A stretch of DNA of 31,213 bases from a virus, in the IMG/VR virus record IMGVR_UViG_3300034418_008293, positions 1 to 31,213 of that record; one strand, written 5' to 3'. This document shows, one piece after another, positions 6,901 to 31,213 of the stretch. The stretch's first letter is position 1, and the number at the start of each line of letters is the position of its first letter. The position numbers and the translations under genes are program-made. The notes beneath the pieces are model-generated. The model worked only from the letters and a program-made list of their open reading frames with translations. It did no database searches and was not told the origin of the DNA.

Positions 6901-9900
6901 GATGAACCCGAGCTGCCAGATGAACCAGATGAACCTGAAGTTCCGCTTGAACCACTAGTACCTGATGAGCCTGAGGTACCTGATGTACCATCGATACCCG
7001 AGATACCTGAAGTACCGCTTGTACCTGATGAACCTGATGTACCTGAGCTACCTGATGAACCCGATGAACCAGATGAACCAGATGAACCAGATGAACCAGA
7101 TGAACCAGATGAACCTGATGTTCCTGATGAGCCACTTGTGCCTGATGAACCTGAAGTACCTGAAGTACCGTCTATACCTGAAATTCCTGAAGTACCTGAT
7201 GTACCTGAGGAACCTGAAGTGCCCGATGAGCCGCTTGTGCCTGATGAGCCGCTTGTGCCTGATGAACCACTTGTACCTGATGAACCTGAAGTGCCGGAAG
7301 TTCCATCAATACCTGAGATACCTGAGGTACCTGAAGTGCCACTTGATCCGCTTGTACCTGATGAACCAGAGCTGCCAGATGAACCAGATGAACCTGAAGT
7401 GCCTGAAGAACCTGAAGTTCCTGATGATCCGCTTGTACCTGAGCTACCTGAAGTACCTGAAGTTCCGTCAATACCTGAGATACCAGATGTACCTGAAGTA
7501 CCAGATGAGCCTGAACTGCCTGATGAGCCTGAACTGCCGGATGAGCCTGATGAACCACTTGTACCAGATGAGCCTGAAGTGCCTGAAGAGCCACTAGTTC
7601 CTGAAGTACCATCGATACCCGAGATACCACTTGTACCTGAAGTACCAGATGAACCACTTGTACCTGATGAGCCAGATGAACCAGATGAACCTGATGAACC
7701 TGAAGTACCTGATGAACCTGAGCTGCCAGATGAACCGCTTGTACCAGATGAGCCTGAGGTTCCGGATGTACCATCTATACCTGAGATACCTGAAGTACCT
7801 GAAGTGCCTGATGAGCCTGAAGTGCCTGATGAACCCGAGCTACCAGATGAGCCGGATGAACCAGAAGTTCCTGAAGAACCTGAAGTACCAGATGAACCGC
7901 TTGTGCCTGATGAACCACTAGTTCCAGAAGTACCATCGATACCCGAAATTCCTGAAGTACCTGAGGTACCAGATGAACCTGAGCTGCCAGATGAACCTGA
8001 TGAACCCGAAGTACCTGATGAACCACTTGTACCTGAAGAACCTGAAGTTCCTGATGAGCCACTGGTTCCAGAAGTGCCATCTATACCTGAGATGCCTGAA
8101 GTACCTGAGGTACCTGAAGAACCGCTTGTACCTGATGAGCCGGATGAGCCCGATGAACCTGAAGTACCTGATGAGCCAGATGTACCTGAACTACCTGAAG
8201 TGCCAGATGAACCTGAGGTACCTGAAGTTCCGTCAATACCTGAGATACCACTTGTACCTGAAGTGCCTGATGAACCGCTTGTACCTGATGAACCTGATGT
8301 ACCACTTGAACCACTAGTACCAGATGAGCCAGATGAACCTGAAGTGCCTGAACTGCCTGAGGTACCAGATGAACCACTAGTTCCTGAAGTGCCATCGATA
8401 CCCGAAATTCCTGAAGTACCAGAAGTACCTGATGAACCTGAAGTGCCTGATGAACCTGATGAGCCTGATGAACCTGATGAGCCTGATGAGCCTGAAGTAC
8501 CTGATGAACCCGAAGTGCCTGATGAACCTGAAGTACCTGAAGTACCGTCTATACCTGAAATACCAGATGTACCTGATGTACCCGATGATCCTGAAGTACC
8601 TGATGAACCAGATGAACCACTTGATCCACTTGTACCCGATGAACCTGATGAACCAGAAGAACCAGATGTTCCTGAAGAACCAGATGTACCCGAAGTACCA
8701 TCGATACCCGAAATTCCTGAAGTACCTGAGGTACCAGATGAACCGCTTGTACCTGATGTGCCTGAACTACCTGAAGTTCCTGATGAACCTGATGTTCCTG
8801 ATGAACCACTAGTGCCTGAAGAACCTGAAGTTCCTGAAGTGCCGTCTATACCTGAGATACCTGAAGTTCCTGAAGTTCCTGATGAACCTGAAGAACCTGA
8901 AGAACCTGATGAACCACTAGTGCCTGAAGAACCAGAACTACCTGAAGTACCGGATGAGCCAGATGTACCCGAACTACCTGATGTTCCAGAAGTGCCGTCT
9001 ATACCTGAGATGCCTGAAGTACCTGAGGTACCTGAAGAACCTGATGTACCTGATGAGCCTGAAGTTCCTGATGAACCAGATGAACCTGATGAACCGCTTG
9101 TGCCTGATGAACCCGATGTACCTGAAGTTCCGTCAATACCTGAGATACCTGAAGTACCTGATGTACCGTCAATACCTGAAATTCCTGAAGTACCACTAGT
9201 ACCTGAAGAACCGCTTGTGCCTGATGAACCTGAAGTTCCTGAAGAACCTGAAGTACCCGATGAACCTGAAGTACCTGATGTGCCATCTATACCTGAGATA
9301 CCAGATGTACCTGATGTACCGTCAATACCTGAAATTCCTGAAGTACCGCTTGTACCTGATGAGCCTGAAGTTCCTGATGAACCTGAAGATCCGCTAGTAC
9401 CTGAAGAACCAGAGGTTCCAGAAGTACCGTCAATACCTGAGATACCTGAAGTACCTGAAGTACCATCGATACCTGAAATTCCTGAAGTACCTGATGTACC
9501 AGATGAGCCTGAAGTGCCTGAAGAACCTGAAGTACCTGAAGAACCTGATGTTCCTGAACTACCTGAAGTTCCGTTTGTTCCGTCTATACCTGAGATACCT
9601 GAAGTACCTGAAGTACCATCGATACCTGAAATGCCTGAAGTACCACTCGTACCTGAAGAACCTGAGGTTCCTGAAGAACCTGAAATTCCTGAGGAGCCTG
9701 AAGTGCCCGAACTGCCTGAAGTGCCATCTATACCTGAGATACCTGAAGTTCCTGAAGTGCCATCAATACCTGAGATACCACTTGTACCTGAGGTACCTGA
9801 TGAACCGCTTGTACCAGATGAACCATCAATACCCGAAGTACCTGATGAACCTGAAGTACCAGAATCTCCTGAAGTACCTGATGAACCTGAAGTGCCATCA

Positions 9901-11159
9901 ATACCCGAAATTCCTGAGGTACCTGAAGTACCTGATGAACCTGATGTTCCAGATTCTCCTGAAGTACCTGATGAACCTGATGTTCCAGCTTCACCTGAAG
10001 TACCTGATGAACCTGATGAGCCCGATTCTCCTGAAGTACCTGATGAACCTGATGAGCCCGATTCTCCTGAAGTTCCGTCTGTTCCTGAAGTACCCGAACT
10101 GCCTGATGAACCATCTGCTCCTGAAGTGCCTGAGCTACCTGAAGAACCAGATTCTCCTGAAGTACCGGATGAACCTGAAGTACCAGATTCTCCTGAAGTA
10201 CCTGATGAACCCGATGAACCAGATTCACCTGAAGTACCTGAAGAACCGGAAGTTCCAGATGTTCCAGAAGTATTAGATTCACCACCACCTCCAGTAATGT
10301 TAATAAGTACGCCGTTTGAACCGCTGGCGGTTACTTCAACGCCGCTTCCCGTGAAGTTGAGATTGGATGCGTTACCTACGACTAAAGAGCCAGTATAGAG
10401 TACATCTGTGATGGTTAAATCATCAAAGAAGTTTTGTAATTCAATCTGGTATGGGGCAAAGTTTGAACCTGCAGGTAAGTCAGTAATACCAGCTAAGTTA
10501 GTTGCAAATATGGGGGCTAAAGACTCTGATGTAGTTAAGGATACAATAGGAAGGGTTTGACCTGGAGATAAAACTAATTGATCTCCACTTTCTGCTTGTG
10601 TTCCTTCTTCAGCCCATTCAATGTAAAAAGAAGCTTCTGATCCATCCGCAGATCTGTATAAAACATCGGCAATATTATATTTGTGATATCTACCAGGGAT
10701 TAAAGTACCTCCTGAATTTGCGGCTGCTCCTATAATAGCATATACCGGAGTAGATCCATTATATTCATTATCATCACTACCTGTAATATTTTTAGTATTA
10801 ATAGGTGTTGTAGTGTTGGGATCATAGAATGAAGCTGAAGCTACATAATAATCACCATCGGCTGGTGAAATTCTAGCTAAAGTATTTGTTACTGTAGTTG
10901 CTGGGAAGTCCGCAACAGTAATGGTAGCAGCACCAGTATCTACAGATACTACGGTGGTTCCCGCTGTAAAGGGGCCAGAAGCTACAAAAGTTTGTCCAGG
11001 TTTTACATAGTCTATATTGAGGTAACCTGATACGTCAATTACATTAGTAATTGTCTTTGAAGACGTATCAAAATCACCTATAACTCTAATGTATGAGTTA
11101 CTACCTGAACCGATGGGGGTAACTCCAGAAAGTTTACCGTAGAAAAGTTGGTTTGCCAT
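912..11159 (-). CDS. Giant Gly-Ser-Thr triplet-repeat fibre protein (3415 aa)
   Basis: Three regions are visible. Residues 1 to about 295 are a non-repetitive N-terminal domain, probably the virion-attachment part. Residues about 299-3109 are an uninterrupted Gly-X-Y array of about 937 triplets, almost all GTS and GSS, punctuated by about 49 GISGIDG/GISGING/GISGVNG modules; E and D occur mainly in the first hundred or so repeat residues and I saw no proline. Residues 3110-3415 are a beta-rich C-terminal region (LTFNGSTLTVTGDLTTTG; later EKNFDIPHP, VLEGPERGVYVRGK, IELPDYW, GCGCG) that resembles the tip of other phage fibres. The layout of anchor, long stalk and tip suggests a tail or head fibre. 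Estimated mass is near 0.3 MDa per chain. The conserved promoter motif lies 33 nt upstream, directly after a terminator. Exact repeat number may be affected by assembly. What the tip binds cannot be told. Confidence 0.85.
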   Translation of the reverse strand: MANQLFYGKLSGVTPIGSGSNSYIRVIGDFDTSSKTITNVIDVSGYLNIDYVKPGQTFVASGPFTAGTTVVSVDTGAATITVADFPATTVTNTLARISPADGDYYVASASFYDPNTTTPINTKNITGSDDNEYNGSTPVYAIIGAAANSGGTLIPGRYHKYNIADVLYRSADGSEASFYIEWAEEGTQAESGDQLVLSPGQTLPIVSLTTSESLAPIFATNLAGITDLPAGSNFAPYQIELQNFFDDLTITDVLYTGSLVVGNASNLNFTGSGVEVTASGSNGVLINITGGGGESNTSGTSGTSGSSGTSGESGSSGSSGTSGESGTSGSSGTSGESGSSGSSGTSGADGSSGSSGTSGTDGTSGESGSSGSSGTSGESGSSGSSGTSGEAGTSGSSGTSGESGTSGSSGTSGTSGISGIDGTSGSSGTSGDSGTSGSSGTSGIDGSSGTSGSSGTSGTSGISGIDGTSGTSGISGIDGTSGSSGTSGSSGISGSSGTSGSSGTSGTSGISGIDGTSGTSGISGIDGTNGTSGSSGTSGSSGTSGSSGTSGSSGTSGTSGISGIDGTSGTSGISGIDGTSGTSGSSGTSGSSGSSGTSGSSGTSGTSGISGIDGTSGTSGISGIDGTSGTSGSSGTSGSSGTSGSSGTSGSSGTSGTSGISGIDGTSGTSGISGIDGTSGTSGSSGTSGSSGSSGSSGTSGSSGTSGSSGTSGTSGISGIDGTSGTSGSSGTSGSSGTSGSSGSSGTSGSSGSSGSSGSSGTSGTSGISGIDGTSGTSGSSGTSGSSGTSGSSGTSGSSGTSGTSGSSGTSGTSGISGIDGTSGTSGSSGTSGSSGSSGSSGTSGSSGSSGSSGTSGSSGTSGTSGISGIDGTSGTSGSSGTSGSSGTSGSSGSSGSSGSSGSSGTSGSSGTSGTSGISGIDGTSGTSGSSGTSGSSGTSGSSGSSGTSGSSGTSGSSGTSGSSGTSGTSGISGIDGTSGTSGSSGTSGSSGTSGSSGTSGSSGSSGSSGTSGSSGTSGTSGISGIDGTSGTSGSSGTSGSSGTSGSSGTSGSSGSSGSSGSSGTSGTSGISGIDGTSGTSGSSGTSGSSGTSGSSGTSGSSGSSGSSGSSGTSGSSGTSGTSGISGIDGTSGTSGSSGTSGSSGSSGSSGTSGSSGSSGSSGSSGTSGSSGTSGTSGISGIDGTSGTSGSSGTSGSSGTSGSSGSSGSSGSSGSSGSSGTSGTSGISGIDGTSGTSGSSGTSGSSGTSGSSGTSGSSGSSGSSGSSGTSGSSGTSGTSGISGIDGTSGTSGSSGTSGSSGTSGSSGTSGSSGTSGSSGTSGTSGISGIDGTSGTSGSSGTSGSSGTSGSSGSSGSSGSSGSSGSSGSSGSSGTSGSSGTSGTSGISGIDGTSGTSGSSGTSGSSGTSGSSGSSGSSGSSGTSGSSGTSGTSGISGIDGTSGTSGSSGTSGSSGTSGSSGTSGSSGSSGTSGSSGTSGSSGTSGTSGISGIDGTSGTSGSSGTSGSSGSSGSSGTSGSSGTSGSSGTSGTSGISGIDGTSGTSGSSGTSGSSGTSGSSGTSGSSGSSGSSGSSGTSGSSGTSGTSGISGIDGTSGTSGSSGTSGSSGTSGSSGSSGSSGSSGTSGSSGTSGSSGTSGTSGISGIDGTSGTSGSSGTSGSSGSSGSSGSSGSSGSSGTSGSSGTSGTSGISGIDGTSGTSGSSGTSGSSGTSGSSGSSGSSGSSGTSGSSGTSGTSGISGIDGTSGTSGSSGTSGSSGTSGSSGSSGSSGSSGSSGSSGSSGTSGSSGTSGTSGISGIDGTSGTSGSSGTSGSSGTSGSSGSSGTSGSSGTSGSSGTSGTSGISGIDGTSGTSGSSGTSGSSGTSGSSGSSGTSGSSGSSGSSGTSGSSGTSGTSGISGIDGTNGTSGSSGTSGSSGTSGSSGSSGSSGSSGTSGSSGTSGTSGISGIDGTSGTSGSSGTSGSSGSSGSSGSSGSSGSSGTSGSSGTSGSSGTSGTSGISGIDGTSGTSGSSGTSGSSGTSGSSGSSGSSGSSGSSGTSGSSGTSGTSGISGIDGTSGTSGSSGTSGSSGSSGSSGSSGSSGSSGTSGSSGTSGTSGISGIDGTSGTSGSSGTSGSSGTSGSSGTSGSSGSSGSSGSSGTSGSSGTSGTSGISGIDGTSGTSGSSGTSGSSGTSGSSGTSGSSGTSGSSGTSGSSGSSGSSGSSGTSGSSGSSGSSGTSGSSGTSGSSGSSGSSGSSGSSGSSGTSGSSGTSGTSGISGIDGTSGTSGSSGTSGSSGTSGSSGSSGSSGSSGTSGSSGTSGTSGISGIDGTSGTSGLSGTSGSSGTSGSSGSSGSSGSSGTSGSSGSSGTSGSSGSSGSSGSSGTSGSSGSSGSSGTSGSSGSSGTSGSSGSSGSSGSSGSSGTSGTSGISGIDGTSGTSGSSGTSGSSGTSGSSGSSGSSGSSGSSGSSGTSGTSGSSGTSGSSGSSGSSGSSGTSGSSGTSGSSGSSGTSGSSGSSGSSGSSGTSGTSGISGINGTSGTSGSSGTSGSSGSSGSSGSSGSSGSSGTSGSSGTSGSSGSSGTSGSSGSSGSSGSSGSSGSSGTSGSSGTSGSSGSSGSSGSSGTSGSSGTSGTSGISGINGTSGTSGSSGTSGSSGSSGSSGSSGSSGSSGSSGSSGSSGTSGSSGTSGSSGSSGSSGSSGSSGSSGTSGSSGTSGSSGSSGSSGSSGSSGSSGTSGTSGISGINGTSGTSGSSGTSGSSGTSGSSGSSGSSGSSGSSGSSGTSGSSGTSGSSGSSGSSGSSGSSGSSGTSGSSGTSGSSGSSGSSGSSGSSGSSGTSGTSGISGINGTSGTSGSSGTSGSSGSSGSSGSSGSSGSSGSSGTSGSSGTSGSSGSSGSSGSSGSSGSSGSSGSSGTSGSSGTSGSSGSSGSSGSSGSSGSSGTSGTSGISGINGTSGTSGSSGTSGSSGTSGSSGSSGSSGSSGSSGSSGTSGSSGTSGSSGSSGSSGSSGSSGSSGTSGSSGTSGSSGSSGSSGSSGSSGSSGTSGTSGISGVNGTNGTSGSSGTSGLSGSSGSSGSSGSSGSSGSSGTSGTSGATGSSGSSGTSGATGSSGSSGTSGSSGSSGSSGTSGTATITNLGDNRVLTSTGVQGEANAEANLTFNGSTLTVTGDLTTTGDVTLGNAAADTVSISGVVSSDILAETAGLYLGDTTNRWEIVANSINATLGTGTDNSVVVKNSSNQLVTDEIDSRVWGSSLVDGSGAATYVTYWSDANTVTGEAAFTYNATTNLLTVSSISGFTAAGDIEMNNNNINNVGTIQAQTLNAEEKNFDIPHPSKEGWRLRYSVLEGPERGVYVRGKVTGEGIIELPDYWKDLVYEDSITVQLTPIGSSCTHHVINVNSSQIAVGCGCGDVNAFYIVHAERKAKEPVWVEYQVVK
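1833..10265 (-). repeat. 8.4-kb GTS/GSS coding repeat array
   Basis: A 9-bp period (one base triplet each for Gly, X and Y) runs without a frame break for about 8.4 kb, encoding residues about 299-3109 of the giant fibre. Codons vary (GGT/GGA/GGC, AGT/TCA/TCT/AGC, ACT/ACC/ACA), so the DNA is not a simple perfect microsatellite. About 49 GISGI(D/N)G-type modules act as markers of a higher-order period. Confidence 0.95.
2055..3926 (-). repeat. Higher-order 306/315-bp tandem repeats (GISGING units)
   Basis: Marker positions, taken as the isoleucine/valine codon of GIS-GI(N/D)G, fall at 2061, 2367, 2682, 2988, 3303, 3618 and 3924. Spacings are 306, 315, 306, 315, 315 and 306 bp, that is 34 or 35 triplets. 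The first six markers encode GVNG or GING; from 3924 on every marker encodes GIDG. This points to local amplification of a unit about twice the size of the units further upstream in the gene. Confidence 0.9.
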
Positions 11160-11254: not shown

Positions 11255-13030
11255 TTAGAATTGGAGAGTATAAATAACTTTTCCAAAAGTATCTAAACCT
11301 CCACTTAGAGTATAGATATTAAAATTAGTAGTTGGTGAGAAAGTTAAACCAGCAGCACCAATTTTAGATCCGGCACCTACGTTATAAGCATCAAATCCAG
11401 GGATATTTCTAGTAGATGTAGAAATATTAGCTCCAGATCCATTTGTGATAGAATTTGGAAGGGTTAATGTAATTACTCCGGTTTCAGAATTATTAATATA
11501 AACAGTACAAGAAATTAATTGGCAATTACCAGCTGATGGAGCATCTATAGTTAATGCCGTTTCACTTAAAGATGATACGTCAAATGCTGGAATATAAGCA
11601 CCTGCTGAACCACTAGTATCTCCTGAATTTGCTACAGTACAAGTAAATGTATCTGTACCTGTTGAGGTAATAGAAACATAAACATAATCTACGTTAAATC
11701 CTCTTAATACTACATAATCACCTGTAGTTAAACCATGTGCTGTAGAAGTTACAGTTAAAGTTGTACCTGAACGGGTCCATGATAATCCGCTTTCAATATT
11801 ACCTGATGATAACATTTGGAATTCATCATTACCTGAAGTTCCGGCATATCTAATAACATTATTATATGGAGTACCTCCACCACCACCTCCGCCAGATTGG
11901 TCTACCCATTCTGTATCGTAGTCAGTACCTGAAGCTTTAGCTAATACTTGTCCTGAAGTACCACCTGTTGGAACTCCTTGTCCTGAAGTACCTGAGCTAC
12001 CAGATGAACCGTTAGTACCTGAAGTTCCTGAAGAACCATTAATACCTGATGTACCAGATGAACCCGAAGAGCCATTAATACCTGAGGTACCAGAAGAGCC
12101 TGAAGTACCTGATGAACCATCTGTACCTACACCTGAAGTACCGGAGCTACCTGATGAGCCATTTGTTCCTGAAGTACCGTTTGTTCCTGATGTTCCGTTT
12201 GTTCCCGAAGTACCACTTGAACCTGAAGTACCATTAATACCTGAAGTGCCTGATGAACCCGAAGAACCATTAATACCTGAAGTACCGGATGAACCTGAAG
12301 TACCTGATGAACCGTCTGTACCTACACCTGAGGTACCTGAAGTACCTGAAGTACCTGATGAACCGTCTGTACCTATTCCTGAGGTACCTGAAGTTCCATT
12401 AGTACCTGAAGTGCCTGAAGTACCATTAGTACCTGAAGTGCCTGAAGTGCCTGATGAACCATCAGCGCCAGAAGTTCCAGATGTACCTGATGAACCATCA
12501 GCGCCTGAAGTTCCAGATGTACCTGATGAACCATCTGTACCTATTCCTGAGGTACCTGAAGTACCTGAAGAACCACTTAAACCAGAGGTACCTGATGAAC
12601 CATCAACTCCTGAAGTGCCCGAAGTACCTGATGAACCGTCAGCGCCTGAAGTGCCTGAGGTACCTGATGAACCGTCTGTACCTATTCCTGAGGTACCTGA
12701 AGTTCCATTAGTACCTGAAGTTCCATTAGTACCTGAAGTGCCTGAAGTACCATCTGAACCCGATGTTCCTGAAGTACCATTTACACCTGAAGTACCAGAA
12801 GTACCAGAAGAACCATCTGTACCTATTCCTGATGTGCCTGAAGTGCCTGAGGTACCTGAGGTACCTGAGCCTCCTCCACCACCTGTGCCTACGGCAACAA
12901 TAGTACCATCAGATGCTTTATAGTAAAGTCCTTCAGCTCCTAATGAGCCAGATGAGAAAACCGCAATCTTACCCGTGCCCGGATTCTCGATTGCGCTTCC
13001 AGTAGTATTTAGAAAATTAATTTGAGCCAC
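11255..13030 (-). CDS. Gly-Thr-Ser repeat fibre protein (591 aa)
   Basis: Start is GTG at 13028-13030, 15 nt after the conserved motif; no ATG start is available near it. Residues 1 to about 54 are an N-terminal domain ([20 protein letters not shown]) typical of phage fibre anchors. Residues about 55-350 are Gly-X-Y repeats rich in GTS and GSS, with GAD, GVD, GIN and GTN triplets and six GIGTDG/GVGTDG elements, each of which breaks the triplet frame by one residue. A linker follows ([26 protein letters not shown]), a pattern common in phage tail fibres, then a C-terminal domain of about 240 residues with beta-rich character. I infer a trimeric fibre or adhesin. It sits between the gp13-15 neck/tail operon and the giant fibre gene and has its own promoter motif and terminator. 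Confidence 0.85.
11981..12868 (-). repeat. Gly-X-Y coding repeat with periodic GxGTDG breaks
   Basis: Encodes residues about 55-350 of the 591-aa fibre. The 9-bp period is reset at six GIGTDG or GVGTDG elements, where a Gly-X-Gly step replaces a triplet. Confidence 0.9.
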
Positions 13031-23948: not shown

Positions 23949-25811
23949 TTACTCTTTAATATTTGATTCATCTAATAGTGACTCCTTACGTTTATCAGAA
24001 GTAAAGACTAATTCTTTGTCTAAAGATTCTAATAAAGTTCGGTTTTTAGCAAAATTATGTTTTGCGGCTTCACTAACTGTAGATTGGTCATCTACTTTCA
24101 TGTCCTTTCTACCTAAACGATCTCTACCGAAAGCGTTGTCTTGAGTATTAATATTTGAAACCTTCTCTTCGGGACGACCTAAAGGACGTTTTTCATCATA
24201 ACCATCAGGTACATTACCTGGGTCTGTTTCCATTCTACCTTTACCATATAATGAAGCTAGATCGTGTGGAGTACCATATGAACGACCTGTTGTAAGTGGA
24301 TCATTACCTTCTGTCTCAATTTGAGCCATACGGAATCTACGTTTTTGGTCTTGAGCGATTAAGTCTCTATACTCTTCATACTCGTCCTCACTAAAGTGGA
24401 AGATATGGTTATAAATCCAATCCGTAGGAAGTAATTTATTTTCCATAATTTGAGAAGCTAAATCTACTTTCTCTTTCATTAATGCGATCTTTTCTTGATC
24501 GTAAATGATAGATGGAGTAGTTAATTGTAACTCAAAATTAGTCATTTGTTCGTCTCTATATCCTTGAGAATATAGGTGAACCAAAGCGATTTTATATAAT
24601 TCTGAAATTAGAATACGTTGTAATCTGTCAATTGTGCGACCGAAACGAATATCTTCAGCTGCTAATGTAGCTTTACCAGATAAATTTTCATCATAGCCCA
24701 TAAATGCTTTAGGCACTTTAAGAGCAGCAAATAATTTTTCTCTTAGGTATTCTACGTCTTCGATTGCGGCGTAATCTAAACCTTTTGTAGTATCAATTTT
24801 AGTTGCTTGATCGTTACCTCTAATAGGGATATAAAAATCCTCCATTATGTTTTGCATATTATAATTCAGGTTATACTCACCTGTTTTCTGGTCCATTAAA
24901 GGTGTACGCTTCATTGTAGAAATTGTTTTCTGCATAAAGTTTTCTACCTCATTTGGAGGAATAGAACCAACGTTAATATAGAAAATACGTTTTTCTGGGG
25001 CGCGGACAATTCTATGGATTAGCATTGCATCTTCCATCAACGCATATTGCTTGTATAATTTACGAGCAGGTTCAATGTATGAACGACCATATGGAAGATA
25101 ATTTACATCCGATAGTAATCTAAAGTGAGCAATCTCATAATTATCAAATGTAATAGTATTACCAGCTGCTCTTTGATTTGGTGTATTATAATATCCTGAA
25201 GAAGTACCACCATAGATACCTTCTGGGTTGTAATTAAATACTACTTTAGATGGGTGTTCTGGGTCAAAATTTTCTTGTCTTTCAATATGGTATGCTGAAT
25301 ATGGGATTACATTATAAACACCATATTTTTCTGAAATTTCTAGTTTAAGGAAAAAGTCACCATATTTACACATTTGGCGAGTCCAAGACCACAAATTAAA
25401 TTCAACGTTTAAGATATCGTAGAATAAATTGTAGAGGATCTTTTGAATATCATCATCCGAGGATTTGATTTGAAGTACTTCACCCATATCATTTTTAAGA
25501 GTACATTCATCAGCAATAATATCAAGTGCAGAAGCAATAATAGCATCTGTATCCATTAAATCATAATCGGAGTATATGTAAGTTCTTAAATACTGATAGT
25601 TCATATTGAACTGAGCTCCGTATAAAGAAGTTGAGGCTGGGTTTTGATAGATACCAGAGAATCTATCCATTAGAGAGTTTGTTTGGAACTCACCAGAGGT
25701 TTGAATGTGATCCGTATCGACTACTTTAAGTTGAGTGCCACCAACGTTTCTAATTACGACGTCGGAAGAAAATAATCTTTGTAGTCTTTTGAATAAACTA
25801 GTATCAGCCAT
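23949..25811 (-). CDS. 20: Portal vertex protein (gp20-like)
   Basis: 620 aa, slightly longer than T4 gp20 (524). It forms the dodecameric portal through which DNA is packaged and which nucleates prohead assembly. The diagnostic central region is clear: PYGRSYIEPARKLYKQYALM and EDAMLIHRIVRAPEKRIFYI at about residues 240-280, then SIPPNEVENFMQK and LKVPKAFMGYDENLSGKATL (about 360-385). The region QMCKYGDFFLKLEISEKYGV, near residue 145, is also typical. The C-terminal about 130 residues are polar and charged and less conserved. It has its own ATATTTATAA motif 14 nt upstream. Confidence 0.97.
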   Translation of the reverse strand: MADTSLFKRLQRLFSSDVVIRNVGGTQLKVVDTDHIQTSGEFQTNSLMDRFSGIYQNPASTSLYGAQFNMNYQYLRTYIYSDYDLMDTDAIIASALDIIADECTLKNDMGEVLQIKSSDDDIQKILYNLFYDILNVEFNLWSWTRQMCKYGDFFLKLEISEKYGVYNVIPYSAYHIERQENFDPEHPSKVVFNYNPEGIYGGTSSGYYNTPNQRAAGNTITFDNYEIAHFRLLSDVNYLPYGRSYIEPARKLYKQYALMEDAMLIHRIVRAPEKRIFYINVGSIPPNEVENFMQKTISTMKRTPLMDQKTGEYNLNYNMQNIMEDFYIPIRGNDQATKIDTTKGLDYAAIEDVEYLREKLFAALKVPKAFMGYDENLSGKATLAAEDIRFGRTIDRLQRILISELYKIALVHLYSQGYRDEQMTNFELQLTTPSIIYDQEKIALMKEKVDLASQIMENKLLPTDWIYNHIFHFSEDEYEEYRDLIAQDQKRRFRMAQIETEGNDPLTTGRSYGTPHDLASLYGKGRMETDPGNVPDGYDEKRPLGRPEEKVSNINTQDNAFGRDRLGRKDMKVDDQSTVSEAAKHNFAKNRTLLESLDKELVFTSDKRKESLLDESNIKE

Positions 25812-25825
25812 TGTTTTGTTTATTA

Positions 25826-25835
25826 TTATAAATAT
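25826..25835 (-). promoter_or_regulatory. Conserved ATATTTATAA motif for the portal gene
   Basis: ATATTTATAATAATAAAC in the gene direction, 14 nt before the ATG at 25811. Its first base is also the last base of the terminase stop codon. Confidence 0.6.
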
Positions 25836-27421
25836 TACCTAAGAAGCCAACTAATGTCTTCAGTGCCACCATTGCCATACGGATTTTCAATCTTGTATGG
25901 ATTTTGGGTACCATTAGCATTATAACCACCCTGCCAGCTTACTCTATTGCTAGAGATATTATTTAAAGTAGCTTTAGAGGCTTCTAAATGTTGTGATCTA
26001 AATTTGAATGAAGTATCTCTCATAAACATAGCGATACCAAATGCCATAACTAAATCATCATTATATCCTTGCTGTGCTTCCGCACGGCCATTCTTCCACA
26101 TAAATACTTTCATTTCTTCAATCAAACGTCTTGATTGAATTGTAACATCTTTACCATTAACATACTCTTGAAACTTACCTACAATCATAGGTCGATTTCG
26201 AGATGTCATAGTAAAACCAGCTACCATTTTTGATGTATCCATATATTTGTCAAAATACGAATCACTCATTGCGGAATCACTCTTACTTGAATAGAATAGG
26301 TTAGTATATCCTCTTTCTATTACAGTTTGGATAGTTGCCCAACCAATAGAAGCATTTTCAATTACAAGTAATGCTTCATTATATTCAGTAGCTATACCTA
26401 CTAATAAGTGTCCGTATTCTTTAGTGCCGAGTTGACCTTTATACTCAGCGACTTGAGTATTGGTTTCAATGTCGATAACATGGAATGCAGAGTAGTCCTT
26501 ACCATCACCACGAGCAACGTCAGCAACCACAAGGTAGGATCTTGAATAATCAGCGGGTTCCCAAATCCATAGATTTTGGTCAGCACCACGTTTTTCAAGT
26601 GGATCCTTAATGTATGTTTGTTCATAAAATTGTAAGTATTCAGCGTAGAATACAGTGTCACCTGAGGTGCTGAAATCACAGTCACACTCTTGGGCTGCCA
26701 TTCTAGGATCACCTAGTAATTCATCTTGTCTATCTCTCCACGTTTGGTCACGTTCAGGGTGAACATACCAAGGTAATTTAATTGGTAAGAAATCACTTTC
26801 GCCATTTTCTGCTCTAACCCATGTTTGATGGAACCAGTTACCTGTACCATAAGGAGTAGATAAAGCAATACACCCACCACCAGTAGCAAGTGTTTGTTGA
26901 GCTGAGGCCCAGATTTCGCCAATGTTATCAATAAAGGCAGCCTCATCAATTAATAGAAGAGAAACGGCTTCCGATCTACCTGCATCACTTGATGCTGAAG
27001 TAGCTTTGATTTGGGATCCGTTATTTAGTCTAAGTGTTAATTTGTTATTTTCGTCTGCTGGGATCTTTAGCCATGAAGGTAAATTTTCATACATGAATTT
27101 AACCTTCGTAACCATGTTTTTAGCTGTTTCTTGCTTAGTCGCAATACAGAGTACGTTTTTATCCTTTTGGAATAACATCAACCACAGAGAATAACCTGCA
27201 CCTAATGTTGAGATACCTAACTGACGGGATTTAAGTACTACAGAATAAGGATTTTCTTGAAATAGTTTTAATACTTTTTCTTGGAATGGGAATAGCTGGA
27301 ATGGGATGCGACCACGTTGTGGGTGTTGAATAAAGCAGTATTTTTTCATAAAGTGGACAGGGTCAGCTGCACACTTAATATACTCTTGTTGGATTATTTG
27401 TCTTAAATTGGGTTCGCTCAT
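25835..27421 (-). CDS. 17: Large terminase subunit (gp17-like)
   Basis: 528 aa. It is the packaging motor ATPase and headful nuclease that docks on the portal. ATPase: the P-loop region is KSRQLGIST at 64-72, with the usual Walker lysine position occupied by Ile70 and a lysine at the front (K64); Walker B SLLLIDEAAF at 154-163 with D159 and E160; STPYGTGN (188-195) is the coupling motif region. Nuclease: D301 in VVADVARGDG, E355 in LLVIENASIG, and D455/D456 in YNDDLVMAFG. The start overlaps the previous gene by 4 nt (ATGA). Shorter than T4 gp17 (610 aa), like marine relatives. No gp16 small terminase is evident beside it. Confidence 0.97.
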   Translation of the reverse strand: MSEPNLRQIIQQEYIKCAADPVHFMKKYCFIQHPQRGRIPFQLFPFQEKVLKLFQENPYSVVLKSRQLGISTLGAGYSLWLMLFQKDKNVLCIATKQETAKNMVTKVKFMYENLPSWLKIPADENNKLTLRLNNGSQIKATSASSDAGRSEAVSLLLIDEAAFIDNIGEIWASAQQTLATGGGCIALSTPYGTGNWFHQTWVRAENGESDFLPIKLPWYVHPERDQTWRDRQDELLGDPRMAAQECDCDFSTSGDTVFYAEYLQFYEQTYIKDPLEKRGADQNLWIWEPADYSRSYLVVADVARGDGKDYSAFHVIDIETNTQVAEYKGQLGTKEYGHLLVGIATEYNEALLVIENASIGWATIQTVIERGYTNLFYSSKSDSAMSDSYFDKYMDTSKMVAGFTMTSRNRPMIVGKFQEYVNGKDVTIQSRRLIEEMKVFMWKNGRAEAQQGYNDDLVMAFGIAMFMRDTSFKFRSQHLEASKATLNNISSNRVSWQGGYNANGTQNPYKIENPYGNGGTEDISWLLR

Positions 27422-27990
27422 TTGCCAATTTTCCAGTACATACGACCTGTGAAAACTGGTTGTAAATCTTGATTAACACCTATTCCAAAACCGTATGCTT
27501 GTTTTCTTTTATTTCTATACATCAATTCACTACCTAGGTAATTGATTTGAGATTGATCTCCTGTTAAACCAACTCCAAAGTATAATTCTCTTTTATTTAA
27601 AATAATAGTTTCTTTAATAGTTTTTCTTGGGTAAGTAAAATTGTAAGCAATTTTTCTACCTAAGATTTGGTTTTGGGATACTGTATCAGTGATCGTTAAG
27701 TCTAGACTGTCTAATACTTGTGTATCCTCGTATGTTCTAATAGCATAATAATCTGCTAAAATAGCTGCTGTATCGATTGGGGTTGTAAATGTATCAATAT
27801 CTACCTTAGTAACATATTTTATTTTAGGTACATATACAGGGTATTCTTTTTCAATCGTAACGTATTCGACAATTGTATCCCTAATAATACGTTCAGTAGG
27901 TTCAATTGGTCCAGAACAGTTACGTTGAAGAAGTAAAATTACTAATACAGCTATTAATAATGTTTGAATATTTTTAACGTAGCGATTCAA
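27418..27990 (-). CDS. Membrane-anchored protein with beta-rich C-terminus (190 aa)
   Basis: One N-terminal hydrophobic segment (TLLIAVLVILLL, residues about 10-22) follows a short basic start, so it should insert in the inner membrane with the rest outside. A cysteine follows closely (QRNCSG) but the preceding residues do not make a good lipobox. The middle is rich in Thr, Ile, Val and Asp (TIVEYVTIEKEYPVYVPKI). The last 55 residues alternate aromatic and polar residues (ELYFGVGLTGDQSQI; QAYGFGIGVNQDLQPVF) and end GRMYWKIGK, reminiscent of outer-membrane beta strands. A spanin-like lysis or envelope role is possible. It overlaps the genes on either side (17 nt and 4 nt). Function unknown. 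Confidence 0.7.
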   Translation of the reverse strand: MNRYVKNIQTLLIAVLVILLLQRNCSGPIEPTERIIRDTIVEYVTIEKEYPVYVPKIKYVTKVDIDTFTTPIDTAAILADYYAIRTYEDTQVLDSLDLTITDTVSQNQILGRKIAYNFTYPRKTIKETIILNKRELYFGVGLTGDQSQINYLGSELMYRNKRKQAYGFGIGVNQDLQPVFTGRMYWKIGK

Positions 27991-28279
27991 GTTCGTTCTT
28001 GATTTTGGTTAACTCTTTTAAACGAGTAAATAACTTATCTTTATCTTCACCTTCAGCTAATTTCCATTTTTTAACTGTAGATTTCATTTCTTTAATAGTT
28101 TCTTTAAGCTTAGGATTAACGCTTTCCTTTTGCATTGCATTAATTTCTCTTTCTAATGCTGCTGTGCGTTCTAAAGCTTGGTTATATTCTTCTTGAGCTT
28201 TAACATCTTCAGGAGTTGCTTCTGTAAGAACATCTACAATAGTTTCTTTAATATATTCTGCTAATTCTGAACGTTTCAT
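27974..28279 (-). CDS. Small coiled-coil protein (101 aa)
   Basis: Begins MKRSELAEYIKETIVDVLTE and is helical and highly charged throughout, with heptad patterns at about 25-50 (EEYNQALERTAALEREINAM) and 75-101. It has no cysteine and no membrane segment. It is the first gene of the unit leading to terminase; its end overlaps the next gene by 17 nt. A small terminase (gp16) is one option for a short coiled-coil protein just upstream of gp17, but I see no DNA-binding motif to support it. The conserved promoter motif is 15 nt upstream. Confidence 0.7.
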   Translation of the reverse strand: MKRSELAEYIKETIVDVLTEATPEDVKAQEEYNQALERTAALEREINAMQKESVNPKLKETIKEMKSTVKKWKLAEGEDKDKLFTRLKELTKIKNELESLR

Positions 28280-28294
28280 TACAATATTATTTTA

Positions 28295-28304
28295 TTATAA
28301 ATAT
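28295..28304 (-). promoter_or_regulatory. Conserved ATATTTATAA motif for the packaging operon
   Basis: ATATTTATAATAAAATAA in the gene direction, 15 nt before the ATG at 28279 and one base after the stop of the kinase-like gene. Confidence 0.6.
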
Positions 28305-28305
28305 G

Positions 28306-28836
28306 TCAAAGTTCAATACTATTAATTATTTGGTGGACTCGTTCCTCTGTACTACCCTCAATTACATCGTAGTTTTTGATACGGTGTTTCTGTTGACTTA
28401 AAATATGTCGAATAATGATATCAATTTCATTTCTATACTCTGCATCAGTTTCTCTAATACCATTATCCTCAATTTCTACACCTTCTGGTGAAACGTAAAA
28501 AATATAATCGTATTCTCTAATCAAACGAATAGCGTAAGTATAAAATGCTTCTTTATCAGTCCAATCCATTGATTTAGAAGCTTGAGCAAATGCCATTACA
28601 TCAATTACAGTGCGATCTGTAATGATGTTTTCTTGCATGAGTTCAGTTGCACGTTCAGCTAAAAATACTGTTTGACCCTTTAAAGTTGAATCAGTATTCA
28701 ATGGAATACCCATTGCCATTAGTTCTTTAGAACGTTCAGTTCTAAAATTATAACCCTTAAAATAATCTAGCTCTTGAAGAGCTTTGACAAGTGTAGTTTT
28801 ACCTACACTCATAGTCCCACATAATCCTATTTTCAT
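28306..28836 (-). CDS. P-loop nucleotide kinase-like ATPase (NadR/AAA_28 type)
   Basis: 176 aa. P-loop GTMSVGKT at residues 7-14. TERSKELMAMG (about 33-43), NIITDRTVIDVMAFAQ (about 70-85) and NGIRETDAEYRNEID (about 124-138) follow the pattern of small P-loop kinases such as the ribosylnicotinamide kinase part of NadR: a substrate-contacting DR-x-x-x-D segment and an Arg-containing lid. It may phosphorylate a nucleoside or related small molecule in the cytoplasm. The true substrate cannot be read from sequence. The start overlaps the cupin gene by 4 nt (ATGA), so the two are likely translationally coupled. Similar ATPases are found in other T4-like phages. Confidence 0.8.
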   Translation of the reverse strand: MKIGLCGTMSVGKTTLVKALQELDYFKGYNFRTERSKELMAMGIPLNTDSTLKGQTVFLAERATELMQENIITDRTVIDVMAFAQASKSMDWTDKEAFYTYAIRLIREYDYIFYVSPEGVEIEDNGIRETDAEYRNEIDIIIRHILSQQKHRIKNYDVIEGSTEERVHQIINSIEL

Positions 28837-29216
28837 CCTTGTGAATCTCCTGGTAATACTCTATAACTATCTTCCTCGTAATGTTTAGTAGATACCTCAA
28901 AAATTGTAGCACCTTGAGATAATGCCTTCAATTGATGTGGTTGTCCTACTTCTAAATCTACGATATCTCCTTCACCAATCAAAGTTGATTGTACTGTAGC
29001 TGTTTCAGTATCGATCCAGCTATATTCAAAATTACCTTCAGCTACATACCAAGATTCTTCTTTAATCAAATGGTAGTGCATTGAAAATTTCTTGCCTTTT
29101 TCAAATACAAGCAGTTTACCACAATATAAGTCGTGGTTTACAATCCAAAGCTCGTGTCCCCAAGCTTTTTTGTGGATATCTCCTTTACGAGGAATTGGCT
29201 GATACTTATGTCCCAT
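28833..29216 (-). CDS. Cupin-domain protein (127 aa)
   Basis: A single small cupin. Motif 1 is GKKFSMHYHLIKEESWYVAEG, with likely metal ligands His47, His49 and Glu53 or Glu54; motif 2 contains GQPHQLKAL with His94. KKAWGHELWIVN near the start resembles the mannose-6-phosphate isomerase type II cupin group, which suggests a sugar or sugar-nucleotide substrate, or a non-catalytic binding role. It begins one base after the stop of the 92-aa gene and overlaps the kinase-like gene, in one accessory operon. The metal and reaction are unknown. Confidence 0.82.
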   Translation of the reverse strand: MGHKYQPIPRKGDIHKKAWGHELWIVNHDLYCGKLLVFEKGKKFSMHYHLIKEESWYVAEGNFEYSWIDTETATVQSTLIGEGDIVDLEVGQPHQLKALSQGATIFEVSTKHYEEDSYRVLPGDSQG

Positions 29217-29217
29217 A

Positions 29218-29496
29218 TTAGTTTCTGTAATCTGATAGTAAGTTTTTCATTGAAGAATTTTTATACCAAGGTAAACCTTCACGTTCTTGCATAATTTCAT
29301 TGTATGATTCTTCATCGTACTGGATACCATGGAGATAATATGATTTAGACATTTCTGATTCTTTATCATATGGTTCAATTGCTGGGCCATCCCAACGATG
29401 GAACTTCCAATTTTCCTCACCTTGCATTCTAACCAGATGAATAATTGCTCCTCTTGAGTTAATTTCTTTGTACTCGTAAAGTCTTTCTTTTGCCAT
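29218..29496 (-). CDS. Small protein with HRWDGPA motif (92 aa)
   Basis: WKFHRWDGPAIEPYDKE followed by SYYLHGIQYDEESYNEI matches the 'HRxDGPA ... W/YYxxG' pattern that is repeated in many phage and bacterial proteins; here it occurs about once. It has no membrane or signal segment. It lies 10 nt after the oxidoreductase stop and one base before the cupin start, so all four genes of this block are likely co-transcribed. The biochemical role of this motif is unknown to me. Confidence 0.75.
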   Translation of the reverse strand: MAKERLYEYKEINSRGAIIHLVRMQGEENWKFHRWDGPAIEPYDKESEMSKSYYLHGIQYDEESYNEIMQEREGLPWYKNSSMKNLLSDYRN

Positions 29497-29506
29497 AACT
29501 TATTTA

Positions 29507-30856
29507 TTAATAATTTTCAAAAAATTCAGGATATTCGTCCATATCCTCTTTAAACTGTAAAATATATTCTGCAACGTATGTTCCTTGAGCACCCGAAACT
29601 GTAATACCACGTGCTGATAAAGCGTCACCTACAAAGTGAACGTTGTTAAAATCAGCTAATGCTAATGTATCATAGTCAACTAATGGTTCAGGTGATAGAT
29701 ACTTGACTTCAGGAATATAAACACCCCAATCATTTTGAAGAGTTGGGAATACTTTTTTCATATCCTCGATAAAATCATCAATGTATGAATAGTAACCTTG
29801 GAAAGCTTCACGTACTTCCTCCATTTGAGGACCACTAATAGAAACAGCACTTACATTTTCACCTTCAGATGTTGTTGAGGGACGACGTGAAGGGCTATAA
29901 TACAAACCAGTAGCATCCTTTTGTACTTTCTCTACCAATTCTCTTGACCATTTAAATGGCTCTTCGATACCTTGAATTTCCATCAAGATACCAAAATTGG
30001 TCATATCGTTTCTGTACTTTTCGTCTTTTTTAGCATGTCCGTTGTACGAATGATTTCCATACGTTTCCTCAACGGCAACAAAAGCTGCGTTGTTGTTTGT
30101 ACAGAAAGAGCGTAGCGATACTCCCTCGCCATCAAATTTTCTATATAGTTTGAAGTCATAACTAATATCAATTAGTTTCTGGAAGTGTTTTTGTGGTGCC
30201 TCAAATCGCACCCCAATTTGTACTGGTTTTGGTTCAGTAGGTAGTGTATATTCGTCTGCTAGTTGTTTACCAAAGTCAATACCTGATTTACCAACTGCAA
30301 AGATTAAGCGGTCATATTTTATTGTTTCTTTTGGAGTATTCCAATCACAATATAATTCATTATTATCAAAATCAATGTTGGTTACTTTAGTCTCCCAAAT
30401 AAATTTAACACCTTTAGACACTAGGAAATCGTACCAATTTTTACCAATCTCGTGTAGATAATCTGTACCAACGTGCCATACAGGGAACAAACGTAAACCG
30501 AAATATGGTTTGATGAAATCAGGTTCTGCTTGGGGATCTGAGCATTGTACTTCTTCTGGTTTAGGGTGGAAACGTTTGAAATTATTGATTACCTCATCAA
30601 ACAACTCCATTGCTTTATCTTCTCCACAATACTTAGACATATGACCTCCAATAGCAGTATGGTAAGTTAATTTACCATCGCTCCAACCACCAGCACCTAA
30701 AAAACCCTCCATTACTTCGGAATACTTTCTTTCATATGGACTTTTACCCATATCAATGATAGTGATAGCTTCGCCCGGATAACCATTGTCTACAAGTTTT
30801 GTAGCTGCATTAACACCTGCTACTCCTGCTCCTACGATTACGATTTTTTCCGTCAT
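29507..30856 (-). CDS. FAD-dependent oxidoreductase (COG2509-like)
   Basis: 449 aa. The N-terminal Rossmann motif VGAGVAG (GxGxxG at residues 9-14) binds FAD; the C-terminal VHFVGDALSARGITVSGAQG is the second flavin-contacting segment. GGWSDGKLTYHTAIGGH near residue 56 and PTEPKPVQIGVRFEAP near 206 are features I associate with the COG2509 group of uncharacterised FAD-dependent dehydrogenases. It has no signal peptide. The substrate is unknown. It is full length, not a fragment, and its AT content and leader style match its neighbours, so it looks like an established phage gene. TAGGAA before the ATG is weakly Shine-Dalgarno-like. Phages rarely carry this family, so it may be an auxiliary metabolic gene. 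Confidence 0.85.
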   Translation of the reverse strand: MTEKIVIVGAGVAGVNAATKLVDNGYPGEAITIIDMGKSPYERKYSEVMEGFLGAGGWSDGKLTYHTAIGGHMSKYCGEDKAMELFDEVINNFKRFHPKPEEVQCSDPQAEPDFIKPYFGLRLFPVWHVGTDYLHEIGKNWYDFLVSKGVKFIWETKVTNIDFDNNELYCDWNTPKETIKYDRLIFAVGKSGIDFGKQLADEYTLPTEPKPVQIGVRFEAPQKHFQKLIDISYDFKLYRKFDGEGVSLRSFCTNNNAAFVAVEETYGNHSYNGHAKKDEKYRNDMTNFGILMEIQGIEEPFKWSRELVEKVQKDATGLYYSPSRRPSTTSEGENVSAVSISGPQMEEVREAFQGYYSYIDDFIEDMKKVFPTLQNDWGVYIPEVKYLSPEPLVDYDTLALADFNNVHFVGDALSARGITVSGAQGTYVAEYILQFKEDMDEYPEFFENY

Positions 30857-30870
30857 TGATTCCTATTTTT

Positions 30871-30886
30871 AATTTATTAAATATAC
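30871..30886 (-). promoter_or_regulatory. Possible degenerate promoter motif for the accessory operon
   Basis: GTATATTTAATAAATT in the gene direction, 14 nt before the ATG at 30856, directly after a terminator T-tract. It resembles ATATTTATAATAAA with two bases missing. Confidence 0.35.
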
Positions 30887-30921
30887 AAAAAAAAACTGCG
30901 ACCTCCTAATTGAGGTCACAG
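30887..30921 (-). terminator. Intrinsic terminator after the partial cupin-like gene
   Basis: In the gene direction: stem CTGTGACCTC / GAGGTCGCAG (10 bp with one T-G wobble), loop AATTAG, then nine T. It separates the partial gene from the oxidoreductase operon. Confidence 0.92.
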
Positions 30922-30959
30922 CTCTCCAAATTTTAATTTTAAGCGACTAGGCTATGAAT

Positions 30960-31213
30960 CTAGTCTAAATGTATTTTGAGTAATAGGTTTCCTGTACCTT
31001 TGATTACTCTGTGCCATTCATGGCGGGGTATAAATATATGATCTTCAAATGAGATTGGCAAGGAATTGTCAAATTGAAATTTCCAGTCTGTTTCTCTTAG
31101 TGATTCTATAGTACGGTCTTCATCATCTCGGTGCCACATTAACTCAATTGGGTCAATGTTTTGGGAAAATTCTCTAATGATGTATTTGTTGTTGACTTCT
31201 ATATCAACATAAG
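30960..31213 (-). CDS. Small cupin-like phage protein, 5' end outside window
   Basis: The frame is open from the window edge to a TAG at 30960-30962, giving the last 83 residues. MWHRDDEDRTIESL, TDWKFQFDNSLP, then IFIPRHEWHRVIKGTG and LLLKIHLD are visible. The His-x-Asp ... His-Arg-Val-Ile-x-Gly arrangement looks like a minimal cupin or double-stranded beta-helix with a metal-type His pair, and the WHRDDEDR pattern is familiar from short conserved proteins of T4-like marine phages. The reaction is unknown. A strong terminator follows 38 nt after the stop. A GTATAAATAT match at 31028-31037 lies inside this coding region. Confidence 0.8.
   Translation of the reverse strand, partial: YVDIEVNNKYIIREFSQNIDPIELMWHRDDEDRTIESLRETDWKFQFDNSLPISFEDHIFIPRHEWHRVIKGTGNLLLKIHLD

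Follow-up and report, generated by a model that had tools for sequence, protein, structure and literature searches.

Why would a phage carry four tightly packed genes of metabolic type beside its packaging genes? The question is raised by IMGVR_UViG_3300034418_008293, a stretch of viral DNA of 31,213 nucleotides (nt) that was analysed as a whole and is called the window here. The unit under study lies at 28306-30856 on the minus strand. Its first gene encodes a COG2509-like FAD-dependent oxidoreductase (29507-30856, 449 amino acids (aa)), called the flavoprotein, which is followed by an HRxDGPA protein (29218-29496, 92 aa), a sugar-isomerase-like cupin of phrog_7851 (28833-29216, 127 aa) and, as the last gene, a P-loop kinase with the NadR/deoxynucleoside-kinase fold, AAA_28 (28306-28836, 176 aa), all on the minus strand. 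In reading order the spacing is +10 nt (flavoprotein/HRxDGPA), +1 nt (HRxDGPA/cupin) and -4 nt, an overlap (cupin/kinase). A first-pass annotation of this DNA had described four tightly packed metabolic-type genes beside the packaging genes, and the single strand, this spacing and the family matches agree with it. The unit is read here, with moderate confidence, as a metabolic operon that is transcribed on its own, belongs to the core genes of a large clade of uncultured marine T4-like phages and would carry out redox and kinase chemistry. The architecture described below is held with high confidence.

Gene frame and cargo slot

Relatives were collected by scans of IMG/VR, which returned at least 592 stretches for the flavoprotein, 63 for the cupin, 470 for the kinase and at least 600 for the terminase; the best loci of each scan, up to 80, were retained, and L- and G-numbers denote such loci and long records. 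The fairest sample consists of 80 loci chosen by their terminase, and presence was counted in the 27 that have at least 3.5 kb upstream. The flavoprotein was found in 25 of these, the HRxDGPA protein in 26, the kinase in 26 and the cupin in 6, and with distinct terminases only (n = 26) the counts are 24, 25, 25 and 6. The co-occurrence check that the first-pass annotation had proposed for the four families is positive for three of them, whereas the cupin is present in a minority of these loci. Among 129 loci in which the flavoprotein is complete and 2.5 kb of sequence follow, the kinase is present in all 129, the HRxDGPA protein, which is nearly always directly behind the flavoprotein, together with the kinase in 126, and the cupin in 72; the remaining three loci have the kinase alone (2) or the cupin and kinase (1). 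The 126 loci with flavoprotein, HRxDGPA protein and kinase in this order represent 89 distinct flavoprotein sequences, so the recurrence of the order is more than chance.

The position of the cupin is a variable cargo slot. In 163 loci with distinct kinases, including loci fetched with the cupin, the slot between the HRxDGPA protein and the kinase holds a window-type cupin in 86 and is empty in 57. The other contents, some of which occur together, are nucleotidyltransferase-like (13), glycosyltransferase-like (8) and pyruvyltransferase-like (1) proteins, another cupin (4), a 94-aa protein (11) and unclassified proteins (4). The slot nucleotidyltransferase is closest to heptose-1-phosphate adenylyltransferase; this match and that of the pyruvyltransferase-like protein are below their cut-offs. 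For the second slot cupin the match is to mannose-6-phosphate isomerase (8.8e-31). The glycosyltransferase label was given by eye, and a Pfam search of that slot protein gave no match. The window cupin reaches 25.0 bits (1.6e-5) with Cupin_2, slightly below the cut-off of 27.2, and its residues 14-124 match phrog_7851 over its length (2.1e-36), a family named 'cysteine dioxygenase', the enzyme name being putative. Some loci encode this cupin and an FkbM methyltransferase domain as one fused protein (6e-15 in L048, 3.7e-10 in L199), and the phage relatives of the cupin sit among sugar-nucleotide genes of cyanophages. Based on the changing sugar-type contents, the fusions and the cyanophage context, the cupin is best read as slot cargo and not as a fixed member. 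Comparison of gene orders shows a frame of flavoprotein, HRxDGPA protein, cargo slot and kinase, with swappable slot contents.

These results bear on the suggestion that all four proteins act in one pathway, for example towards a modified nucleotide sugar, in which the kinase would add phosphate, the cupin would isomerise or epimerise and the flavoenzyme would provide a redox step. The tight packing, the sugar-type slot enzymes (the mannose-6-phosphate-isomerase-like cupin, the heptose-1-phosphate nucleotidyltransferase-like and pyruvyltransferase-like proteins and the cupin-FkbM fusion) and the cyanophage sugar-nucleotide genes that adjoin the same cupin family are in its favor. However, the frame genes persist where the slot is empty (57/163) and where the window-type cupin is absent (77/163, despite the cupin-fetched loci in the sample), and the best folds for the kinase are deoxynucleoside and nicotinamide riboside kinases. 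A single pathway for all four proteins is unlikely, and this part of the first-pass annotation found no support, since the cupin is interchangeable with mostly sugar-type slot genes and is sometimes fused to FkbM.

The frame genes are conserved in sequence as well as in order. Measured against the window, the proteins of the terminase-selected loci have median identities of 74.9% (flavoprotein, 44 loci), 77.7% (terminase, 80), 68.2% (portal, 72), 64.9% (kinase, 59) and 46.0% (HRxDGPA protein, 50). A second sample, mostly fetched with cassette proteins, comprises 44 loci in which all five genes are complete and the terminases differ; here the mean protein distances are 0.218 for the flavoprotein, 0.247 for the terminase, 0.274 for the portal, 0.337 for the kinase and 0.527 for the HRxDGPA protein. 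Codon comparisons show that the flavoprotein, the HRxDGPA protein and the kinase are under purifying selection, with median ratios of nonsynonymous to synonymous substitutions (dN/dS) of 0.12 (40 pairs), 0.09 (14) and 0.12 (28), respectively; the terminase and the portal each have 0.08 (40 pairs each). The description of the genes as accessory was not upheld, as the three frame genes are near-universal in the terminase-selected loci and under purifying selection.

The best 80 cellular homologues of the flavoprotein listed from 84,980 species genomes are 25-31% identical to it, and its base composition is like that of its neighbours (GC 0.367, terminase 0.376), which makes recent acquisition unlikely. 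The genes might be ordinary cargo, that is, recently acquired host metabolic genes under no special constraint, as their metabolic families and the existence of an empty site (L285) would allow. This is largely contradicted by the distant cellular homologues, the neighbour-like composition and the near-universal, conserved state of the genes, and ordinary cargo is hardly credible here. If the unit is core, as read here, apparent cargo beside a terminase can belong to the core genes and enclose an exchangeable slot.

Borders of the unit and the mini-hairpin

Directly downstream of the kinase lies a small gene, o101 (27974-28279, minus strand), followed by the small gene o190 (27418-27990), the terminase (25835-27421) and the portal (23949-25811). 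Upstream of the cassette is a partial small gene called hydrox (30960-31211), whose product has an HxD...HR pattern and appears mini-cupin-like by eye; a Pfam search of this protein gave no match. The hydrox gene recurs upstream of the cassette in relatives. The empty site at L285:9341-10001 contains the hydrox gene, a 134-aa protein and the terminase, and no flavoprotein, HRxDGPA protein or kinase. A DUF6884 protein (PF21818, 2.9e-41) is found near the flavoprotein in L101, L128 (4565-5041), L134 and L281, and at L249:1521-2006 it stands where the flavoprotein would be expected; this protein may be related to YaaA/DpdC. In two contigs the flavoprotein gene is interrupted (L263:892-2225 and L270:6802-8111), by sequencing error or decay. 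Short amphipathic N-termini (MDNFDLKKYLAEGKLxE, MKxSExxxxIKExIxxxLxE) were seen by eye in o101 (27974-28279) and in many genes of G001 and G003. We take these to resemble the capsid-targeting sequences of T4, and they possibly mark a large set of internal head proteins. Farther away in the window, a 3415-aa protein that consists mostly of extreme low-complexity repeats (912-11159), its 591-aa relative (11255-13030) and a collagen-like protein with GPIGPQGP repeats (1-888) are probable fibre proteins. Among cultured phages the closest terminase is that of the Flavobacterium phages immuto (60% amino-acid identity), whose terminase-portal-protease-capsid block is the same and in which the cassette is absent. 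The hosts of the clade are probably Bacteroidota.

Upstream of the flavoprotein there is a terminator-like hairpin with a 16-pair stem and a T run (30890-30927, minus strand); the scan for such sites found 6 in the 5.7 kb versus 2.6 expected. It overlaps a sigma-A(Bacteroidota)-like promoter (30878-30909, minus strand) that features a -33 box TTAGG, 19 nt and a -7 box TATATTTA. In many relatives a terminator-like hairpin, TTTGG, about 20 nt and GTATATT[TC]A follow one another 20-40 nt before the flavoprotein ATG. The consensus for the Bacteroidota sigma factor is given as TTTG / TANNTTTG in two reports (PMC6847099, PMC9723704), and the cassette -7 box differs from it in its last base, A. A sigma-A-like -7 box was found in 44 of 89 flavoprotein, 14 of 79 HRxDGPA and 2 of 169 kinase upstream regions. 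The full promoter with TTTGG precedes 3 of the 79 HRxDGPA genes, which together with the 14 -7 boxes suggests that some units may have a second start; it was found before none of 59 hydrox, 50 cupin, 169 kinase, 100 o101, 72 o190, 165 TerL and 119 portal genes. In the long records G002 and G003 most promoter matches precede, by 9-32 nt, genes that lie outside the structural block; within the block one match precedes the flavoprotein, and the others lie inside genes or before single other genes.

The 3' border is marked by a late-type motif, ATATTTATAA (28295-28304, minus strand), two positions past the kinase stop, where the next unit (27974-28279) starts. The motif precedes 98 of 100 o101 and 105 of 119 portal genes, and it was found upstream of 0 of 89 flavoprotein, 0 of 79 HRxDGPA, 1 of 169 kinase, 1 of 72 o190 and 0 of 165 terminase genes. 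Copies of this type occur on the minus strand of the window at 28304, 25835, 23937, 16709, 16133, 13055 and 910. They stand 18-25 nt before late gene starts, where the 7-mers of the motif are enriched 6-9 fold, and the motif is likely the late promoter of the clade. With the terminator and promoter at the 5' side and the late-type motif at the 3' side, the unit spans from about 30927 to 28306, slightly beyond its start at 30856. Host RNA polymerase would express the unit early, despite its position among late genes.

The position beside terminase and portal could also be explained if the products were late or virion-associated proteins, such as enzymes packaged in the head. The cassette does lie among late genes, and o101 next to it starts, by eye, with a capsid-targeting-like stretch and carries a late-type motif. 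In the cassette itself, however, the promoter motif is of host type and the late-type motif is absent, and the flavoprotein starts directly at the Rossmann strand in most of 32 aligned homologues, with no targeting-like N-terminus. A late or virion-associated role is very unlikely.

Within the 5' border, ahead of the promoter, a conserved mini-hairpin, GAG-A-GCTGTGAC-CTC (30912-30926, minus strand), was found, whose general form is XYZ-A[GT]CTGTG[GA]C-Z'Y'X'. In a covariation set of 28 distinct 22-mers, hand-picked from 45 listed, 90.7% of the cells pair and the covariation score is 0.521 versus 0.164 in shuffles (0/500) and a maximum of 0.186 when slid; two of five other measures (numbers of changed pairs and of pair types) are no higher than in shuffled sets, and 10 of the 28 sequences do not form the inner G-C pair. 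The general form fits 142 places in all loci, which were not dereplicated. A tabled flavoprotein start lies no more than 120 nt away from 126 of these places; the other 16 are 67-358 nt before a flavoprotein, 8 of them beyond 200 nt, which leaves space for a small gene. Other loci, 2.6 Mb in total with both strands counted, did not contain the form. A search of 2.9 million viral contigs in IMG/VR with two exact versions (GTC and GGG stems only) returned 104 and 22 stretches. In the 125 stretches examined, the flavoprotein is within 130 nt in 116 and further on in 8, and the contig ends early in 1, so the flavoprotein is downstream in 124 of 124 judgeable places. The invariance of the core is partly built in, because contexts were chosen by A[GT]CTGTG[GA]C with complementary flanks; a less biased figure is that CTGTGGC or CTGTGAC occurs in 73 of the 89 distinct flavoprotein upstream regions. 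These alignments and searches show that the mini-hairpin is covarying and cassette-specific.

The mini-hairpin and the terminator-like stem overlap in 41 of 49 dereplicated contexts, the 3' arm of the former being part of the 5' arm of the latter, and in all six GGG-type contexts the terminator-like stem is absent and the mini-hairpin is kept. Rfam gave nothing at gathering scores in the window, and two matches near the L188 element are far below them. The mini-hairpin might act as a tiny RNA switch or an attenuator, in which an anti-terminator built around the constant core A[GT]CTGTGGC shares an arm with the terminator, although we regard this as doubtful. A protein or a metabolite of the cassette would then set late read-through, and the host-type promoter inside the element would give early expression. 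It would serve as a compact regulator for a single enzyme.

Candidate chemistry of the frame proteins

The flavoprotein matches Pyr_redox_2 (2.8e-9) and phrog_12409, 'dehydrogenase' (5e-21). Its structure model has a predicted local distance difference test (pLDDT) score of 79.6, and the nearest structure is 3NLC (Z 24.7, 383 residues, root-mean-square deviation 4.5), followed by four HI0933/YhiN-type structures (2GQF, 3V76, 2I0Z and 4CNJ, Z 16.8-17.5). In BFVD the best match, at 44% identity, is to a protein from an uncultured phage that carries the name COG2509, and the second is to a Campylobacter phage protein. The FAD Rossmann motif at the N-terminus, GAGVA (residues 9-13), is invariant in 32 phage homologues, and G9 and G11 remain invariant when bacterial-type members are included. 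Proteins from marine phages (four) and a Campylobacter phage, aligned with two of bacterial type, share 44 invariant columns, which include RxFC and NGH, and hhalign pairs the flavoprotein with a bacterial-type member at a probability of 99.8. By predicted whole-length fold and family motifs the flavoprotein is COG2509-like, as the first-pass annotation had proposed. The C-terminal domain PF21688 was called in three bacterial-type homologues and not in the window or Campylobacter phage protein; the corresponding region of the flavoprotein still aligns by profile and fold. The cellular gene neighbourhood was considered as a guide to COG2509 function and yielded none: in the 73 of 80 loci in which the flavoprotein was located, the commonest neighbours by eye are purA-like (7/73) and dnaB-like (5/73).

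The kinase matches AAA_28 (3e-14) and phrog_2107 (9.5e-26), and its match to phrog_3462 covers only positions 168-337 of the 346 in that profile. The model (pLDDT 88.7) is tied between a deoxyadenosine kinase from Mycoplasma (2jaq, Z 16.9) and NadR (6gye, Z 16.5). The protein features a Walker A motif, GTMSVGKTT, and D74-R75-T76 is invariant in 28 sequences; (D/E)R[ST] is a deoxynucleoside kinase motif. The fused NMN adenylyltransferase and kinase architecture of NadR was not found in the phage protein, which is a single domain of 176 aa. The fold is NadR-like, in a tie with deoxynucleoside kinase. For the HRxDGPA protein, Pfam, PHROGs and NCBIfam gave nothing, and 22 homologues searched against Pfam gave one chance-level match (E 0.36) and otherwise none.

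The likeliest chemistry for the cassette, put forward tentatively, is redox plus phosphorylation of a nucleoside- or cofactor-type metabolite. The COG2509-type flavoenzyme would hold FAD in its Rossmann domain, would probably be reduced by NAD(P)H and would oxidise or reduce a small nucleoside- or cofactor-like metabolite. The kinase would phosphorylate a nucleoside-like partner of the same pathway, the HRxDGPA protein may be an accessory subunit, and the cupin would serve a different, sugar-type reaction. A shared role of flavoprotein and kinase is plausible.

A more specific substrate has to be weighed, as the flavoprotein, perhaps with the kinase, could tailor or supply a 7-deazaguanine modification of phage DNA. 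The uncultured relative G001 (170 kb, its first genes recurring at the end) encodes FolE (GTP cyclohydrolase), QueD, QueE and QueC at about 60-67 kb (L290), together with a DpdA-like protein that is 36% identical to the annotated DNA guanine transglycosylase of Immuto. From this gene content, G001 is expected to have 7-deazaguanine-modified DNA. QueC is present in 4 of 19 long records (G001-G003 and G007), most of the others being fragments. Immuto has a distant kinase homologue (28%) inside its deazaguanine cluster, between a formyltransferase-like gene and QueF, just after DpdA. The Campylobacter phages (38 records) are the only named cultured phages with the flavoprotein in the phages collection, and dADG has been reported from Campylobacter phages (PMC6884629). 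Several results oppose this idea. Immuto has the DpdA and QueF genes and no flavoprotein match at 1e-5, the G001 cassette is about 70 kb from the Que genes, no annotated Que gene was found in the NCTC12673 record, and a query with G001 QueE returned no NCTC12673-type record among the matches listed. The deazaguanine genes occur in few long genomes and may reflect shared ancestry. No 7-deazaguanine step is known to require a flavin. Cui et al. 2023 reportedly describes formyl- and methyl-preQ1 from phages; the argument here does not draw on that paper. The link of the cassette to 7-deazaguanine DNA is weak, and a role in this modification is improbable. Human-faecal 'Bacteriophage sp.' matches (11 of 49 phages-collection records with the flavoprotein) were not used as phage evidence; two of them, MT836377 and MT835490, carry DnaX, RecR and SmpB, or ThyA and DHFR (by eye), and resemble pieces of bacterial chromosome.

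The reading of the cassette as a core, separately transcribed redox and kinase operon is faced with several points that weigh against it. Cassette proteins served as queries for most of the loci, dereplication is only partial, and co-inheritance within the clade alone could keep the neighbours together. The unit is dispensable in some phages, since L285 is without all three frame genes and L249 has the HRxDGPA protein and kinase without the flavoprotein. In conservation the flavoprotein and the terminase are about equal, and the sample decides which one leads. Flavoprotein distances correlate weakly with those of the terminase (Mantel 0.15; kinase 0.55), which suggests that cassettes probably recombine between phages of the clade. 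Regarding expression, the full TTTGG promoter precedes a minority of flavoprotein genes (28 of 89), the window -33 box TTAGG fails the strict TTTGG pattern, and the G001 -7 box is degenerate. Regarding function, no characterised COG2509 member and no literature on the COG2509 reaction were found. If the reading of a core operon is right, a flavoenzyme would be near a hallmark gene of a widespread marine phage clade, with a constraint comparable to that of the packaging motor and with its own control. The COG2509 reaction would then be worth solving, and the kinase, the 92-aa protein and the dedicated control element would narrow the search.

Comparison with known systems

The flavoprotein shares with VP0956 (3NLC) and cellular COG2509 proteins the G-x-G, SDxK, HxG, GxxG, IGxRxE, RxFC, NGH and GD motifs and the whole-length fold. 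It differs from the cellular proteins in identity (25-31% for the best 80 listed), in that PF21688 is not called in the phage protein, and in its gene neighbours. The 'NAD(FAD)-utilizing dehydrogenase' gp008 of Campylobacter phage NCTC12673 belongs to the same family, is 26% identical and likewise comes from a T4-like phage; however, its neighbours include dUTPase, endolysin and clamp loader, and no adjacent HRxDGPA, cupin or kinase gene was seen. HI0933/YhiN-type proteins are more distant, as 214-226 residues align and Pfam HI0933_like scores 18.5 bits versus a cut-off of 50. YhiN itself reportedly has rRNA dihydrouridine activity. The kinase has the fold (tied), the Walker A motif and the DRT motif in common with the ribosylnicotinamide kinase domain of NadR and with deoxynucleoside kinases, from which it differs by an identity of 17-21%, and it is without the adenylyltransferase domain of NadR. 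As a unit, the cassette resembles morons and auxiliary metabolic operons in that it lies within a foreign transcription region and apparently has a terminator-like hairpin and a host-type promoter motif of its own. It differs from morons in being near-universal in the terminase-selected loci (25/27) and in having a GC content like its neighbours, so that it is neither accessory nor foreign in the way that morons are.

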